NCBI RefSeq assembly: GCF_014696135.1 | Contig: NZ_JACJPP010000006.1 | Coordinates: forward strand, 1 to 64,000 | Direction of reading: 5' to 3' | Origin: Nodosilinea sp. FACHB-141 | GTDB taxonomy: Bacteria > Cyanobacteriota > Cyanobacteriia > Phormidesmidales > Phormidesmidaceae | Length of the DNA stretch: 64,000 bases | Shown here: in pieces, positions 9,724 through 40,019 of the stretch | Layout of the letters: every line of letters begins with the position of its first letter | Position numbering within the stretch: the first letter of the stretch is position 1 | The notes under the pieces: model-generated | Database searches by the model: none | The model's input: only the letters and a program-made list of their open reading frames with translations | Told to the model about the DNA's origin: nothing | Translations under genes and position numbers: made by a program

Positions 9724-9972
9724 CTAGCGGCGTATCCATTTGGTGAGAATGCGTATGGGCTGGCCGGTGGTGGGGTCGAGCTGGGGTTTGCTCCAGGCGC
9801 GGGGTTCGGCGAAGCCGATGCTGTGGAGATGGGCGATGACTAGCTCCATGCCGGTGGCGGTGCCGATGAGCATGACGCGCACGGGTTCGCGTGGGTCGGC
9901 GGGCTCTGAGCTGGGTGGGTCGCCGGAGGGCGGCTGGCTATAGATTTCGCTGTTGGGGATGAATTCTGACAT
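9724..9972 (-). CDS. Small hypothetical protein, paralog of the one at 38440
   Basis: The 82-residue product has a Pro/Ser-rich N-terminus and a compact C-terminal half, PVRVMLIGTATGMELVIAHL then GFAEPRAWSKPQ and ILTKWIRR. The protein at 38440-38718 aligns over the same half (RVRHLLYGSRLGIDRTIKIL, GYANPNDWSDP, ILTK). Family function is unknown. The fold prediction by eye is strand, helix, strand. It is convergent with the SDR and lies at the left border of the accessory island. Confidence 0.7.
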   Translation of the reverse strand: MSEFIPNSEIYSQPPSGDPPSSEPADPREPVRVMLIGTATGMELVIAHLHSIGFAEPRAWSKPQLDPTTGQPIRILTKWIRR

Positions 9973-10176
9973 GGCGATCGATAAATAAGGGTGACAGAAG
10001 AGGGCTAAATCCTAGAGCTTTTGAAAAACCCTGGGATCTTTTGCCGCAAGAAGCTGCACGAAGGGTGCGAAACCCTGCGCAAAATGGGAAACTGGGCTAA
10101 CAAATCAGCAATGCCCCGTAACGGCAAGAACGGTCTTGTCTTCTGGGCCGTAGTTTAGAGGCAATACTGGAAGCTT

Positions 10177-10219
10177 ACTTCCGCTTGACGCATGTGTCAA
10201 GCAGTGGACTTCCGGAAGT
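10177..10219. promoter_or_regulatory. Paired palindromes upstream of the XRE gene, possible operator
   Basis: Two palindromes lie 12-54 bases before the XRE start: CTTGAC-N6-GTCAAG at 10184-10201 and the perfect 12-mer ACTTCCGGAAGT at 10208-10219. An extra half site ACTTCCG occurs at 10177. Small XRE proteins often bind their own promoter, so these are candidate autoregulatory operators. This is inference from position and symmetry. Confidence 0.45.
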
Positions 10220-10230
10220 TGAATTCCGCA

Positions 10231-10473
10231 ATGTCTGATGAGGCACTGAATCGGCAAGAATCCCCTTTGAAGCAGATGCGGCAACGGGTTGGGTTAACCC
10301 AAGTTGAACTAGCAAGGCGAATTGGGGTATCCGACAGAGCAGTAAGAGCTTGGGAAAAAGGGGAATATCCTCCAACTCTAACAATCCCTCAGATTCGAGC
10401 ATTATGCAGGGAGTTACAAGTTCCCTTTGATGAACTACCTAGTGACTTTGGCCCTTCGGGAAATAAAGAATAA
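10231..10473 (+). CDS. XRE-family helix-turn-helix regulator
   Basis: The 80-residue protein is a single HTH_3 (Cro/CI) domain: MRQRVGLTQVELARRIGVSD is helices 1-3 and RAVRAWEKGEYPPT the recognition region, followed by IPQIRALCRELQVPFDEL. It should bind DNA as a dimer. ATG at 10231 is preferred; a start at 10192 would place coding sequence over the candidate operators. It precedes the 266-aa and DUF488 genes on the same strand by 173 bases and is the likely regulator of the module. Confidence 0.88.
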   Translation: MSDEALNRQESPLKQMRQRVGLTQVELARRIGVSDRAVRAWEKGEYPPTLTIPQIRALCRELQVPFDELPSDFGPSGNKE

Positions 10474-10646
10474 TTAAAACACTTATTTCAGTACTAGATG
10501 TAGCGTTGCTATTCAAGGAAATGATTACATCTAGCGTTCCTGAATTTCGATGTAAGCACTCAAAACACACAATTGCATTTCTTGCTGAGTGATGTACACT
10601 GTCGAATAAGAATAGTTCACAAGAACTAGTGAAGGGTTGATATCTT

Positions 10647-11447
10647 ATGGAGAGACGGAAGATATTAATTGCTACTAAAACCTACCCTTCCATTAGCAAA
10701 AAGTATAAGGAGACTGTTTGCACTGCTGGAATTCTCTTAGATAACGATGAAACTCCGGTATGTTGGATAAGAATTTATCCTGTCCGATTCCGTACATTGT
10801 CATTTGATAGGCAATATCCTCGATGGTCTATCGTTAGTGCCAAGATAGAGAGAAATGAAAAGGATTACCGAGTAGAAAGCTACAGAATAGACGATTCTTC
10901 TATTGAAGTCATCCGATCACTCGGCACCTCCAACTATTGGCAGGAGCGAAAGTCATTTGTCTTGCCATTTCAAAGCCCGTCAATTTCATCTATCAGCAAC
11001 CAAGGGAGATCTCTTGGAATTATTAAACCTCTCAAGATTGACAGCTATTTCTGTCGACCAGCATCAAGTGAATGGAGTGATAGTCAGAAAGCTGTTCTAG
11101 ATCAGGGCGACTTCTTTGAGGAAGCTAGTGATCTCGAAAAAATACCGTACCAGTTTGGCTACAAATTCACTGCACAAGATGGAACCCAACATAAATTTTC
11201 AATAAGTGACTGGGAAATTAGTCAGTTATACAGAAATTGTCGAAACTCATCTCAAAAAGCAACTCTAGCGGAGAGAGAAAAGGATGCTTTAGAAAAAGTC
11301 AGACAAAAGCTTGCTGAGAGATTCATGGATGAGGACAAAATAGATTTGTACTTTATTGTTGGAAATCTGAAGAATCATAGCAAGACATTTATGATAATCG
11401 GGCTCTTCTACCCACCTTTCAAATCTCAACTTGATCTTGGTATATAG
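10647..11447 (+). CDS. Unknown 266-aa protein of the DUF488-associated module
   Basis: I do not recognise a named domain. The N-terminus (RRKILIATKTYPSISKKYKE, then VCTAGIL and WIRIYPVRFRTL) looks like a conserved family that I have seen next to DUF488 genes, a recollection that needs checking. The middle is rich in charged residues, with YFCRP near residue 135, and the C-terminus has a KIDLYFIVGNLKNHSKTFMIIG segment, a plausible beta-strand pair. No signal peptide or membrane helix is present, so it is cytoplasmic. The gene is clearly AT-richer than its surroundings and has different codon use (many AGA, ATA codons). A GAAGGG Shine-Dalgarno lies ten bases before the ATG. The DUF488 gene follows after 46 bases. 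Confidence 0.8.
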   Translation: MERRKILIATKTYPSISKKYKETVCTAGILLDNDETPVCWIRIYPVRFRTLSFDRQYPRWSIVSAKIERNEKDYRVESYRIDDSSIEVIRSLGTSNYWQERKSFVLPFQSPSISSISNQGRSLGIIKPLKIDSYFCRPASSEWSDSQKAVLDQGDFFEEASDLEKIPYQFGYKFTAQDGTQHKFSISDWEISQLYRNCRNSSQKATLAEREKDALEKVRQKLAERFMDEDKIDLYFIVGNLKNHSKTFMIIGLFYPPFKSQLDLGI

Positions 11448-11493
11448 AGAATTTTGCCACCGTCTTGGCAAGATCTATGTAAGGGATATAGAT

Positions 11494-11922
11494 ATGAACT
11501 CATGTAGCGAAACCTTGAAATCAATACTGACGTTTGGGTACGGAAATCGAAAAGACTATAGCGTTTTTTTGGACTATTTGAAGACGTATAGTATTCAATA
11601 CGTAATTGATGTGCGTCTAAATCCTCGTGCTTGGACGAGAAAATGGTACGGCTGCGCGCTTAAAAAATTCTGTGATGAAATAGATATTGAATACATTTCA
11701 GAGACATCTTTAGGAAATACTTCGGGGAAAAAAAATTGGATCCCTCCAGATATAGCTCTGGCAGAACAGCGTCTCCTTGAGATTGCTGAAATTTTAAACA
11801 GCAAAAAGACTAGGAACATTCTTTTGCTATGTGCCGAGCTAGATTATTCACGCTGTCATCGTACAGAGGTCGCAGAAAGGCTTCAAAGTATGACTGACTT
11901 TCCAATCAAACACTTGCAATAA
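11494..11922 (+). CDS. DUF488 family protein
   Basis: The 142-residue protein shows the DUF488 pattern: the N-terminal TFGYGNRKDYSVFLDYL, the strand VIDVRLNPRAWTRKW, ISETSLGNT, and the C-terminal signature LLLCAELDYSRCHRTEVAE (Cys and Cys-His-Arg). DUF488 has no firmly established activity; the invariant Cys/His/Arg suggest catalysis or metal binding. An AAGGGA Shine-Dalgarno lies seven bases before ATG 11494. A start at 11431 would overlap the preceding gene. Both genes are AT-rich and likely cotranscribed. Confidence 0.88.
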   Translation: MNSCSETLKSILTFGYGNRKDYSVFLDYLKTYSIQYVIDVRLNPRAWTRKWYGCALKKFCDEIDIEYISETSLGNTSGKKNWIPPDIALAEQRLLEIAEILNSKKTRNILLLCAELDYSRCHRTEVAERLQSMTDFPIKHLQ

Positions 11923-11937
11923 TTTCTGTTTTTTCTC

Positions 11938-12264
11938 TTAGCTTGGCTGCTCACGCTCAAGAATACTATTGATATCCTGTGATCCATACAGAATTCGGAC
12001 GACTTCAACCGCTGTGGGCAAGTCAAAATAAAAAATCATGTATTGCCTAAACCCCTTCACATGCCATTTTCGCAAGCCCTGCAAAGAAGCACTCTGAACT
12101 GGGTAAACGACGCCAATTGCAGGCATTCTAGCTATCTGTGCGATCGTTAACCGAGCAGCATCGAAGAATTTTAACGCTGCTTCGGAGTTGCTCTGCGCAA
12201 TGTAGGTGAAGTGATCGTCAAGGTCTTGGTTTGCCCGTGGGCGAACTGTAATTTGCTTACCCAT
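11938..12264 (-). CDS. ParE/RelE-superfamily toxin
   Basis: The 108-residue protein fits ParE: VRPRANQDLDDHFTYIA near the N-terminus, then AALKFFDAARLTI, the LRKWHVKGFRQYMIFY strand pair and VEVVRILYGSQDI near the end. ParE toxins inhibit DNA gyrase, although RelE relatives cleave mRNA and the target here is inferred. ATG at 12264 lies one base after the antitoxin stop (12266), the standard tight coupling. A longer start at 12288 would overlap the antitoxin. The pair faces the DUF488 gene. Confidence 0.87.
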   Translation of the reverse strand: MGKQITVRPRANQDLDDHFTYIAQSNSEAALKFFDAARLTIAQIARMPAIGVVYPVQSASLQGLRKWHVKGFRQYMIFYFDLPTAVEVVRILYGSQDINSILEREQPS

Positions 12265-12265
12265 A

Positions 12266-12514
12266 CTACTCAGTAGGCAGTTGAGCAATTAAAGCTGAGC
12301 GCTTCCGCTCCCACCATTCATCGGTCGCTTCAATAGGCTCGCCGCTTTCTAAGCCTTCTAGCAAAAGTGCTTCAATCTTTGCCTGTTGAGATAGGCGCTC
12401 TTGGTCTCTCAAGACTAAATGCACCAAGTAATCGGTTGCTGTGTCAAAACCAGCCCGTTCAGCTTGTTGAGCGATCGCCGCTCCTACACTATCTGGCAAA
12501 GAGATATTCAACAT
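12266..12514 (-). CDS. ParD-like antitoxin
   Basis: The 82-residue protein begins MLNISLPDSVGAAIAQQAER, a ribbon-helix-helix DNA-binding motif, followed by a charged C-terminal toxin-neutralising region ending in WWERKRSALIAQL. It is upstream of and coupled to the ParE-like toxin. The family normally represses its own promoter. ATG at 12514 gives the usual antitoxin length; an alternative at 12541 adds nine residues. Confidence 0.87.
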   Translation of the reverse strand: MLNISLPDSVGAAIAQQAERAGFDTATDYLVHLVLRDQERLSQQAKIEALLLEGLESGEPIEATDEWWERKRSALIAQLPTE

Positions 12515-12597
12515 AAGGCTTGCACTCAACCAATGCCGCATTCCTTTAATATTACCGAATCCGTCGTCAGCCCAAGTCAGTGTTCTATGCTGAAACT

Positions 12598-13053
12598 ATG
12601 ACCCAAACCATTGAACTTGCTACTTTTGGGGCCGGATGCTTCTGGGGTGTAGAAGCCGCCTTTCGCAAACTCGACAGCGTAATTGCCACCTCCGTAGGCT
12701 ACATGGGCGGCCACTTCGAGAACCCCTGCTACCTAGATGTGCTCTCTCGCATCACCGGCCACGCCGAAGTCTGTCAGGTACAGTTTGACCCCGCCGAAAT
12801 TTCCTACGACGCGCTGCTCGATACCTTTTGGCGCATTCACGACCCCACCAGCCTCAATCGCCAGGGGGGCGATCGCGGCGAGCAATACCGCTCCGTGATT
12901 TTTTACCACACCCCAGAACAGGGCAAAGCCGCCCGTCAAGCCAAAAACAAACTGCAAGACTCAGGCCACTACCCCAAACCCATCGTCACCCAAATCGAAC
13001 CCGCCAGCGCCTACTGGCTCGCCTCAGAAGAGCACCAGCAATACTTTGGCTAG
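12598..13053 (+). CDS. msrA: Peptide-methionine (S)-S-oxide reductase
   Basis: The 151-residue enzyme repairs oxidised methionine. The catalytic motif [15 protein letters not shown] is at residues 13-27, followed by [41 protein letters not shown] and QYRSVIFYH. These match MsrA. ATG at 12598 leaves a short N-terminus, and the protein ends at EEHQQYFG without the extra C-terminal recycling cysteines of longer forms. It is divergent from the ParDE pair. Confidence 0.95.
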
Positions 13054-38718: not shown

Positions 38719-39251
38719 CGGTTCTGTGTTCCTTCTATGGGTTTGAGGAAGACAGAACGCGAAAACCCTAGCTAACCGCAGCTGAGGTGCAAACTGGGAG
38801 AGCTAGGGTACGATCGACCTTAGCCCGGCAATCTGCGCAAGAGATTTGCGGGGTTAGCTGTTCGTAGGTGTTGCAAGCGCCTACGGACAGCGCCAAAGTT
38901 TTCGAGTTCTGTGTGGTCACCGCTCTGCTGAACGGCTTAATGGATGATGATAGTGGTACAACTGCTCCTCGTCAACCGTGAAGCGAATGCGCTACCTACC
39001 AGTCTTTATAAAGCTATTCAGAAATTTTTAGTTGCCCACCGGCAGTAAGGATATGCCGTACGAACTTTCCATATAACTACCCTCTCCAGGTAAATTATAC
39101 GGAAACATTAGTATAACTATCCTCTACAAGGCATTTATACAGAAACTGTCGACATAATAAGTTGTTAGCCGCCATAATACCTATTTAAGAGAACTATCAG
39201 GGTACAGGATGGCCTCATTTTCAACCTATATTTTCAATTGACTCAATCATC
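38719..39251. other. AT-rich intergenic region
   Basis: 533 bases between two divergent genes with no reading frame of merit. Contains a 40-bp direct repeat described separately. GC drops clearly relative to flanking DNA and no HIP1 octamer occurs. No tRNA or terminator seen. Confidence 0.5.
39071..39150. repeat. Two tandem 40-bp direct repeats
   Basis: The segment at 39071-39110 (ATATAACTACCCTCTCCAGG...) repeats at 39111-39150 (GTATAACTATCCTCTACAAG...) with exactly 40-base spacing and about 75 percent identity, sharing ATAACTA-CCTCT and TTATAC-GAAAC blocks. It ends about 100 bases before the membrane gene at 39252, so it may be regulatory. Confidence 0.65.
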
Positions 39252-39992
39252 ATGGAAATAATTCAACTGCCAAATAGCGGCGCAGCTGTTACCAGTAGTG
39301 ATAGAGGACTGCATGTTGTCATTCCTGTACGCAAAGAATGGAGCATGGTTATATTGTGCGTACTTTCCTTTCTTATGTTTGGAACAGCCACTCTGGCGAT
39401 GTTGTTTGCAATACCGGATGTACTTAACGATCCAAGCAAACCTCTTTGGCTCTTTATACCCTTCCTAATACTTCTTATTGCAACTGACATCTTAATGATT
39501 GGATTAGTTTTATGGAATTTAACTGGAAGAAGGATTATTCACGTTAATAGCATCCGCATGATCTTACAATATAAAATGTTAGGTTTTGCTCGTGAGCAGA
39601 AGTTTGATCTAGAAAAGATCGACAATCTACAAGTTAGAAACCTTAAGGAATTTGCATTGCCTGGAAGTGACGCCGATCGCATGGATGACAAAACATTCAT
39701 TGCTTCACTTGACAATTACTCTATTACCTCAATGGTTAGTGAAACCTTTTTTGACCGTTTAATGAAAATTGATTTGACGAAGCTTCACAAACTTCGGTTT
39801 AACGATCTGAGAACGTCTAAAGATCCGTTAGAACCGTATCGATTTTCTCGTGGGTTTTGTAGCGGTATTCTGTTTGATTACAACACAAAGCGTCATGAAT
39901 TTGGCATGGGTATAATCAACGGCGCAGAATCGGAGCAGTTAGTCAACATTATCACGCAACGTTATCGAATCTTAGGCTCTAAAAAGGGTTGA
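39252..39992 (+). CDS. Two-helix membrane protein of unknown function
   Basis: The 246-residue protein has a short N-terminus, two adjacent membrane helices at about residues 30-58 and 64-90 (VILCVLSFLMFGTATLAMLF and LFIPFLILLIATDILMIGLV), then a C-terminal soluble domain of about 155 residues whose alternating strands resemble a bacterial PH-like fold. I do not recognise it. Codon use is AT-biased and no HIP1 sites occur, suggesting transfer. It is convergent with the ligase gene. Confidence 0.72.
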   Translation: MEIIQLPNSGAAVTSSDRGLHVVIPVRKEWSMVILCVLSFLMFGTATLAMLFAIPDVLNDPSKPLWLFIPFLILLIATDILMIGLVLWNLTGRRIIHVNSIRMILQYKMLGFAREQKFDLEKIDNLQVRNLKEFALPGSDADRMDDKTFIASLDNYSITSMVSETFFDRLMKIDLTKLHKLRFNDLRTSKDPLEPYRFSRGFCSGILFDYNTKRHEFGMGIINGAESEQLVNIITQRYRILGSKKG

Positions 39993-40019
39993 ATTAGCTC
40001 ATTAGCCTGACATTGCTGA

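Follow-up and report, generated by a model that had tools for sequence, protein, structure and literature searches.

RESULTS

Genes and features of the locus

The window, by which we mean the whole 64,000-nucleotide stretch of DNA analyzed here, carries three same-strand genes at 10177-11922, as the original prediction had claimed. They encode an XRE regulator, a protein of 266 amino acids (aa), and a DUF488 protein, and we refer to the last two as M19B and M19A. The HIP1 sites of the window and its relatives point to a cyanobacterial source. The features of the locus are the following.

10106..12611, no strand: cargo site, replaced in six of six congeners with both flanks; edges approximate, the left one to about 15 bp
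10184-10201 and 10208-10219, no strand: two operator-like palindromes upstream of the XRE gene, read from the sequence
10231..10473, + strand: XRE gene, 80 aa, start corrected; belongs to the cargo site and lies outside the M19 pair
10647..11447, + strand: M19B, 266 aa, tandem-OB-like protein, PADLOC PDC-M19B (PADLOC match and model)
11103..11117, + strand: internal clamp-type motif of M19B, QGDFF, residues 153-157, in a low-pLDDT block
11427..11444, + strand: C-terminal clamp-like hexapeptide of M19B, QLDLGI, residues 261-266 (sequence and low pLDDT)
11494..11922, + strand: M19A, stand-alone DUF488 protein, 142 aa (Pfam, PADLOC, and motif)
11938..12288, - strand: ParE-like toxin gene, fellow cargo (PF05016, E = 1.7e-12)
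12266..12541, - strand: weakly ParD-like gene, fellow cargo (TIGR02606, E = 0.012, below that model's cut-off)

The XRE protein matches HTH_3 (E = 2.3e-13), and both palindromes do lie upstream of its start codon, but the start itself had to be shifted and, judged by the congener proteins, is most likely 10231. The 266-aa protein, described earlier as having no recognized domain, indeed returned zero Pfam or NCBIfam matches at E ≤ 1; it matches phrog_25907 (E = 6.9e-49). M19A matches PF04343 (DUF488; E = 3.5e-14, 53.9 bits against a cut-off of 22.2) and carries the expected Cys and Cys-His-Arg motif as CAELDYSRCHR. The gap of 46 bases reported between the two genes holds if the DUF488 gene starts at ATG 11494, the start favored by a Fischerella homolog. 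The ParDE-like pair said to abut these genes is present on the opposite strand, its ParD-like member being a weak call. Across the 5.9-Mb source genome, M19B and DUF488 have one match each (E ≤ 0.001), and the two are neighbors.

A variable cargo site beside msrA

Comparison with congeners bore out the proposed horizontal acquisition: six of them match the window collinearly on both sides of the site (blastn pieces 79 to 94% identical plus one perfect piece of 29 bp), and in each of the six 10106-12611 is replaced by 1.5 to 3.9 kb of other DNA. The site is flanked by msrA on the right and by an 82-aa gene (9724-9972) on the left, with an SDR gene further left in four of the six. Four further congeners (L157 to L160), in which msrA alone was found, were left out of the comparison. 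In L151 the cargo comprises AbiV (PF18728, E = 3.7e-16), HigB (PF05015, E = 4.5e-25), and an HTH gene (AbiV plus HigBA). Elsewhere it includes an HSDR_N_2/zinc-ribbon protein in L153, of which L154 holds a near-identical copy (the domain scan covered L153), and, by our own reading of the sequence, a transposase in L156. Cargo genes of no known type are found in L152, L155, and L156.

The gene at the left edge in all six congeners is a homolog of the window's XRE gene (E = 6e-23 to 4e-12). Since this homolog occupies the same edge beside other cargo in six of six, the XRE gene marks the site, and the M19 and ParDE-like genes are its cargo. The three-gene XRE-M19B-DUF488 unit suggested earlier is thus rejected on the congener comparison. 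Around other M19 loci, a phmmer search of the open reading frames (ORFs) of nonviral loci L001 to L061 gave only two weak XRE matches, one about 170 bp past M19B (L031, E = 0.0056) and one about 2.8 kb before DUF488 (L027, E = 0.0019). Partly in favor of the original prediction, an XRE domain is fused to the DUF488 partner in two Streptomyces.

The AT richness of the pair is real, with 39% G+C at 10647-11922 against 56.3% in the window and 8 of 1,255 sliding windows as low. By contrast, the HIP1-free stretch that had been taken as a second sign of acquisition is of ordinary size. The window holds 82 HIP1 sites with a largest gap of 3,135 bp, and we rejected this gap as evidence of acquisition, as an equal or larger one arose in 79% of 20,000 random placements.

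A catalogued defense candidate

The pair had been taken for an undescribed module, but the PADLOC catalogue already lists it as phage defense candidate PDC-M19 (M19A plus M19B). The window's M19B matches PDLC04508 over nearly the whole model (E = 2.4e-70; residues 1-263 on model positions 1-267 of 269), M19A matches PDLC04505 in part (E = 2.2e-15; best stretch 136-219 of 294 model positions), and the genes are adjacent, as in PDC-M19. The window-type M19A differs in being without the N-terminal domain, and the PADLOC entry states no mechanism. In the open-licence literature searched, we found neither the name PDC-M19 nor a functional description, binding, toxicity, or phage assay of the pair. 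As far as these searches go, the tandem-OB prediction, clamp motifs, uneven decay, and cargo site described here are new.

Two published systems were compared with the pair by description. Genes 43/44 of phage CarolAnn, considered as a homologous tested system, look unrelated in this comparison; in the CarolAnn paper, gp43 is a proposed membrane channel, and Nymphadora is the phage under attack (PMC6426606). CarolAnn is not among the seven phage records with M19B. ARPP, which has invariant Cys and Gln residues and is paired with a rhodanese-phosphatase (PMC9503650), has a described fold unlike our M19B model, but ARPP and M19B may still be identical.

M19B and DUF488 are consistent neighbors on mobile DNA

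M19B was found in 16 of 386 genomes of the phylum and 4 of 63 of the family, with two loci from genome contigs, as well as in 24 of 72,556 plasmid records (18 fetched), 7 of 50,697 phage records (all Gordonia, 1 fetched), and 44 viral-contig loci, one of which (L101) repeats the L067 contig. Dropping duplicates (L001 to L005, L008 to L023, and L101) and requiring an M19B of at least 230 aa clear of the stretch end left 68 loci, a set that still holds near copies (L029 and L092 are apparently the same phage; L064 and L065 are alike, as are L067 and L068). DUF488 adjoins M19B in 66 of these 68 near-full-length uncut loci, so the suggestion in the original prediction that this 266-aa family occurs beside DUF488 was accurate. 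The 66 loci comprise 27 convergent arrangements, 26 with DUF488 upstream, and 13 with DUF488 downstream, and 62 of 67 full-length M19B sequences differ by more than 10%. The two loci without an adjacent DUF488 are plasmid pSOG2 (L028), whose record has none, and L047, whose contig begins 54 bases before a partial M19B. A Natronococcus M19B found later (L106) also has no DUF488 on its 1.02-Mb record.

Viral contigs gave a similar picture, with DUF488 present in 42 of 44 M19B loci. In the reverse direction, the window's DUF488 protein matched 28 of 386 phylum genomes at E ≤ 0.001, among them a sharp group of 12 of the window type (E ≤ 3.4e-40; the next match is at 8.5e-9). M19B is matched in 11 of these 12 genomes, twice in part, and the twelfth (G219) retains a 19-residue remnant. 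All four plasmid matches to the DUF488 query fell in M19B-bearing records. Control searches, run separately for each protein, matched both M19B and DUF488 in Synechococcus elongatus. Archaeal M19B came from the plasmid searches, in four genera, and a scan of viral contigs with a Sulfolobus query found no archaeal-type M19B.

The M19 pair occurs on chromosomes of bacteria, on bacterial and archaeal plasmids, and in temperate phages, and its distribution is patchy: within the genus, this M19B copy occurs in 1 of 26 genomes and a distant copy in 1 other. The pair of Gordonia phage Nymphadora lies directly beside the immunity repressor, with the integrase three genes on; this is a usual place for prophage defense genes. 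A CI-like repressor lies one ORF from the pair on one viral contig (L078), and on another (L083) the pair sits between head-protease and neck genes, not near a repressor.

M19B is predicted to consist of tandem OB folds

An AlphaFold2 model of M19B built on 32 sequences reached a mean pLDDT of 91.0 and a pTM of 0.88. The best PDB matches in Foldseek were LEF-3 (E = 1.3e-5), RPA, a HIN-domain protein, and Teb1. LEF-3 was also the top match in VIA (Z = 7.9 over 177 residues, root mean square deviation [rmsd] 7.5 Å, a range that the tool calls common), followed by telomere-end, SSB, and RPA proteins and by further matches such as OB domains of tRNA synthetases. On the strength of this model, and with modest scores, we read M19B as tandem OB folds resembling single-stranded DNA (ssDNA)-binding proteins. 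The likeness to LEF-3, RPA, and SSB lies in the predicted tandem OB arrangement; LEF-3 differs in sharing some 9 to 12% identity with M19B, and ssDNA binding by M19B is a prediction from the model. Neither the Foldseek nor the VIA list contains nuclease or polymerase folds, although M19B could still have one, and no enzyme fold was recognized in M19B by either tool. A sequence search for related solved structures gave no meaningful E-value (best, 0.21). Six polar residues, C25, R42, R75, E77, S78, and W189, are invariant in 28 of 28 aligned copies.

Clamp-type motifs in two flexible segments of M19B

Among 35 bacterial representatives of M19B (<60% identity), 33 have Q at residue 153, all 35 have L, F, I, or M at +3, and 31 have F at +4, in the midst of variable residues. 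Many M19B C termini read QLSLF, QMSLF, QGSLF, or similar. The hexapeptide form of the clamp-binding motif is QLxLxL. The bacterial clamp motif is given as QL(S/D)LF and the PCNA motif as Qxx[I/L]xxFF (PMC9690074). With a loose pattern, the tail motif was found in 24 of 37 representatives and failed in 13, against a mean of 1.6 and a maximum of 5 for shuffled tails (500 rounds); among the controls, such a tail was seen in a single DUF488 partner out of 74 and in 20 of the 754 remaining ORFs (200 aa or longer). The internal motif, again by a loose pattern, was found in 32 of 37 representatives (shuffled mean, 7.9; maximum, 15). Both motifs of the window's M19B, QGDFF and QLDLGI, are imperfect, the tail being hexapeptide-like at most. 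Their places coincide with the blocks of lowest pLDDT in the model, 151-160 (61) and 261-266 (50), all other blocks being at 82 or above.

In two Sulfolobales M19B proteins, the aligned Q starts QATLDQY or QATLEQY, and the Natronococcus M19B ends in QPGLDSF, while the Haloquadratum M19B has no clear PCNA-like heptamer. Of 64 bacterial M19B proteins, 11 likewise contain such heptamers, in 5 cases overlapping or beside a motif place; unlike both Sulfolobales heptamers, none of the bacterial ones starts at the aligned Q, and two bacterial tails have one, like the Natronococcus tail. These sequences are at most suggestive of an archaeal switch to PCNA-like motifs. From the motifs as a whole we infer that M19B may bind a sliding clamp.

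The DUF488 partner

M19A is a stand-alone DUF488 protein in the window, an XRE-DUF488 fusion in the two Streptomyces, and a DUF488 domain preceded by ParB_N and HTH_ParB in Saccharolobus and Haloquadratum; cyanobacterial and viral copies with a domain of about 145 aa ahead of DUF488 constitute the long partners. A domain scan of nine DUF488 partners recovered XRE in two and ParB in two (among M19B proteins, the scan covered the window's). All 79 partner ORFs, a set that includes near-identical copies, carry the CxE...CHR motif.

Evidence for a Panacea domain in the long M19A proteins is suggestive. Against SocA_Panacea, 8 of 18 members gave weak matches at E ≤ 1 (best, 6.5e-4). In hhalign, the front of the long M19A aligned with a Panacea set at P = 2.2e-5 and a probability of 52, while the DUF488 half gave P = 0.9, with a rough set that includes at least two wrong ORFs (L113 and L115). 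The model of the long M19A N terminus matched one chain of 7yk3, a DarTG complex structure (Z = 8.6 over 119 residues, rmsd 4.1 Å; Foldseek E = 0.05). The window's M19A has no Panacea domain, with DUF488 models alone matching at E ≤ 1.

The nearest structures to the DUF488 domain of the long M19A model, at Z = 9.7 to 8.4, are CbiL, diphthine synthase, and PTP-fold phosphatases. A sequence search with DUF488 for related solved structures gave no meaningful E-value (best, 0.38). Burroughs and Aravind (2023) reportedly placed DUF488 in a RapZ-C/DUF488/DUF4326 clade of the rhodanese-phosphatase superfamily. The phosphatase-like neighbors of the model fit this placement, and M19A resembles the clade both in its Pfam DUF488 match and in its model.

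Uneven decay of the two genes

Seven loci combine a truncated or split M19B with an intact DUF488 domain. Three of these are congeners of one another with three different lesions: a remnant only (G219), the first 64 positions missing (G315), and the end missing (G322). The others are Rhizobium phaseoli L059 and viral contigs L088, L089, and L093, of which L088 and L093 may be assembly errors, the front of the L093 partner seemingly being out of frame as well. One M19B counted as full length (L037 in G360) lacks its tail and has in-frame stops according to the family search, and a truncated Gloeocapsa M19B (L057) has no DUF488 on its record. We found no clear case of a full-length bacterial M19B without DUF488 in sampling that was mostly M19B anchored; the exceptions, L028 and L106, are archaeal. 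Decay of this kind would be expected of a toxin and its protector, but most of the sampling was M19B anchored, and broken M19B genes could also mean no more than that M19B is dispensable.

DISCUSSION

We propose that M19A and M19B form a mobile two-gene conflict module, similar to toxin-antitoxin or abortive-infection systems, in which M19B is a clamp-docked effector restrained by DUF488; we regard this proposal as evenly poised between right and wrong. In this scenario, M19B, as a tandem-OB and probably nucleic-acid-binding effector, would dock on the replication sliding clamp through its two short flexible motifs, of the QxxLF type in bacteria and PCNA-like in some archaea, and would disturb DNA synthesis or act on DNA at the fork. 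The DUF488 protein, with a cysteine-centered and phosphatase-like predicted fold that is fused to a DNA-binding or antitoxin-like domain in some lineages, would hold back M19B or undo its effect until infection tips the balance. The partnership, the mobility, the motifs and their position in low-confidence segments, the predicted folds, and the uneven decay are observations; clamp binding, toxicity, the roles of the two proteins, and defense are inferences from them. The stress or defense role suggested in the original prediction is plausible.

A more ambitious version of this proposal is tentative, and we would sooner expect it to fail than to hold. It would make the pair a new class of replication-targeting immune module, whose tandem-OB effector carries two docking motifs matched to the host clamp, either the bacterial beta clamp or archaeal PCNA, and acts at the fork on ssDNA or replication factors. 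A phosphatase-like DUF488 antitoxin would restrain it or chemically reverse its action, and the sensor or DNA-binding domain of this antitoxin would be swapped by lineage (none, XRE, ParB, or Panacea-like).

To our knowledge, few toxins or defense effectors act on the replication sliding clamp. SocB and RipA are precedents (PMC9690074, PMC8832971, PMC12795458). The likeness to SocAB of Caulobacter lies in a partner with a clamp-binding motif and in the weak Panacea match of some long M19A proteins (PMC9690074, PMC8832971); the M19 partner differs in having a DUF488 domain and the window's M19A in being without Panacea, and SocB was set against M19B by description. In RipAB (Spr1630/Spr1629), a Rosmer toxin-antitoxin system, the toxin likewise acts on the sliding clamp DnaN, but the antitoxin is XRE-ImmA rather than DUF488, and RipA, too, was compared with M19B by description (PMC12795458).

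Alternatively, the pair may be a DNA repair or replication accessory of mobile elements, in which the clamp recruits M19B as an SSB-like mediator and DUF488 trims phosphates or ends, so that the pair aids the element or its host in replication or escape from damage rather than in defense. We consider this reading possible but doubtful. Housekeeping proteins of replication and repair typically have clamp motifs and OB folds (PMC9690074), the pair is borne by plasmids and phages, and head and neck genes surround one of the viral copies. However, an accessory of this kind fits poorly with the patchy occurrence in the genus, with a cargo site that also houses AbiV and toxin-antitoxin genes, with the uneven decay of M19B, and with the fusion of the partner to XRE, ParB, and Panacea-like domains.

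An enzyme pair analogous to DarTG appears improbable. M19B would then modify DNA or a nucleotide, with C25, R42, R75, E77, S78, and W189 as catalytic residues, the clamp motifs would merely bring it to the fork, and DUF488 would reverse the modification. The invariance of these residues and the constancy of the CxE...CHR motif in the partner argue for such chemistry, but M19B shows no recognized enzyme fold. OB folds usually bind and seldom catalyze, and a chemistry of M19B is hypothetical. The long partners do resemble a binding domain joined to an enzyme, which is how DarG is described (PMC8832971). The likeness to DarTG would thus consist of a binding-like domain joined to a possible reversing enzyme in the long M19A, whose N-terminal domain matches the 7yk3 chain, whereas neither an ADP-ribosyltransferase nor a macro domain was recognized in the M19 pair. 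The least probable reading reverses the roles, with DUF488 as the toxic or effector arm and M19B as a clamp-docked sensor or restrainer: the recognizable enzyme motif and fold do sit on DUF488, but so do XRE, ParB, and Panacea-like domains, which are typically found in antitoxins (PMC8832971), and the DUF488 domain outlives a broken M19B in seven loci.

If the proposed conflict module with M19B as effector and DUF488 as its restraint is correct, it would supply a directly testable mechanism for a widespread, catalogued but unexplained defense candidate, assign a role to a DUF488 lineage, and make M19B a source from which clamp-binding peptides could be drawn. Further defense genes of this genus may also be sought in the cargo site beside msrA. 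In the bacteria, archaea, and phages that carry it, the M19 pair may then let microbes interfere with DNA copying during virus attack.

Gene gp42 of Gordonia phage Nymphadora (L029 5822-6274) is annotated 'HipA toxin'. Despite this label, our HMM search identified its product as a DUF488 protein, and its partner, gp43, is the tandem-OB-like protein M19B.

On archaeal plasmids, the genes adjoining M19B include two ParB-DUF488 fusions, and in two Sulfolobales plasmids, pSOG2 (L028) and L055, a further small gene lies directly 3' of M19B:

L055 3945-4994, ParB_N-HTH_ParB-DUF488 fusion adjoining M19B
L058 5992-7074, ParB_N-HTH_ParB-DUF488 fusion adjoining M19B
L028 5852-6358, gene of about 168 aa directly 3' of M19B
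L055 5870-6361, gene of about 163 aa directly 3' of M19B

CTP binding has been reported for an archaeal DUF488-HTH fusion in a ParB-fold survey (PMC12704722). A domain scan of the pSOG2 3' gene product, the only one of the two scanned, found no convincing family. These 3' genes may represent an addition to, or a substitute for, DUF488.

In a viral contig (L083 7983-9219), the pair is flanked by a head maturation protease gene and a neck gene, an odd spot for cargo. In Rhizobium phaseoli (L059 4929-6157), where IS66-type genes adjoin the locus, DUF488 is intact and M19B lacks its N terminus, which looks like insertion-linked loss.

Within the window, 39001-40000 is a further AT-rich patch (G+C, 0.383).

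Among six congeners (L151-L156), the genus's cargo site, which runs from the left-edge XRE gene to msrA, carries AbiV and HigBA in one genome and a single HSDR_N_2 plus zinc-ribbon protein in a second; a third genome has a nearly identical version of this protein, and the remaining genomes have unknown genes there. These unknown cargo genes are candidates for further defence functions.
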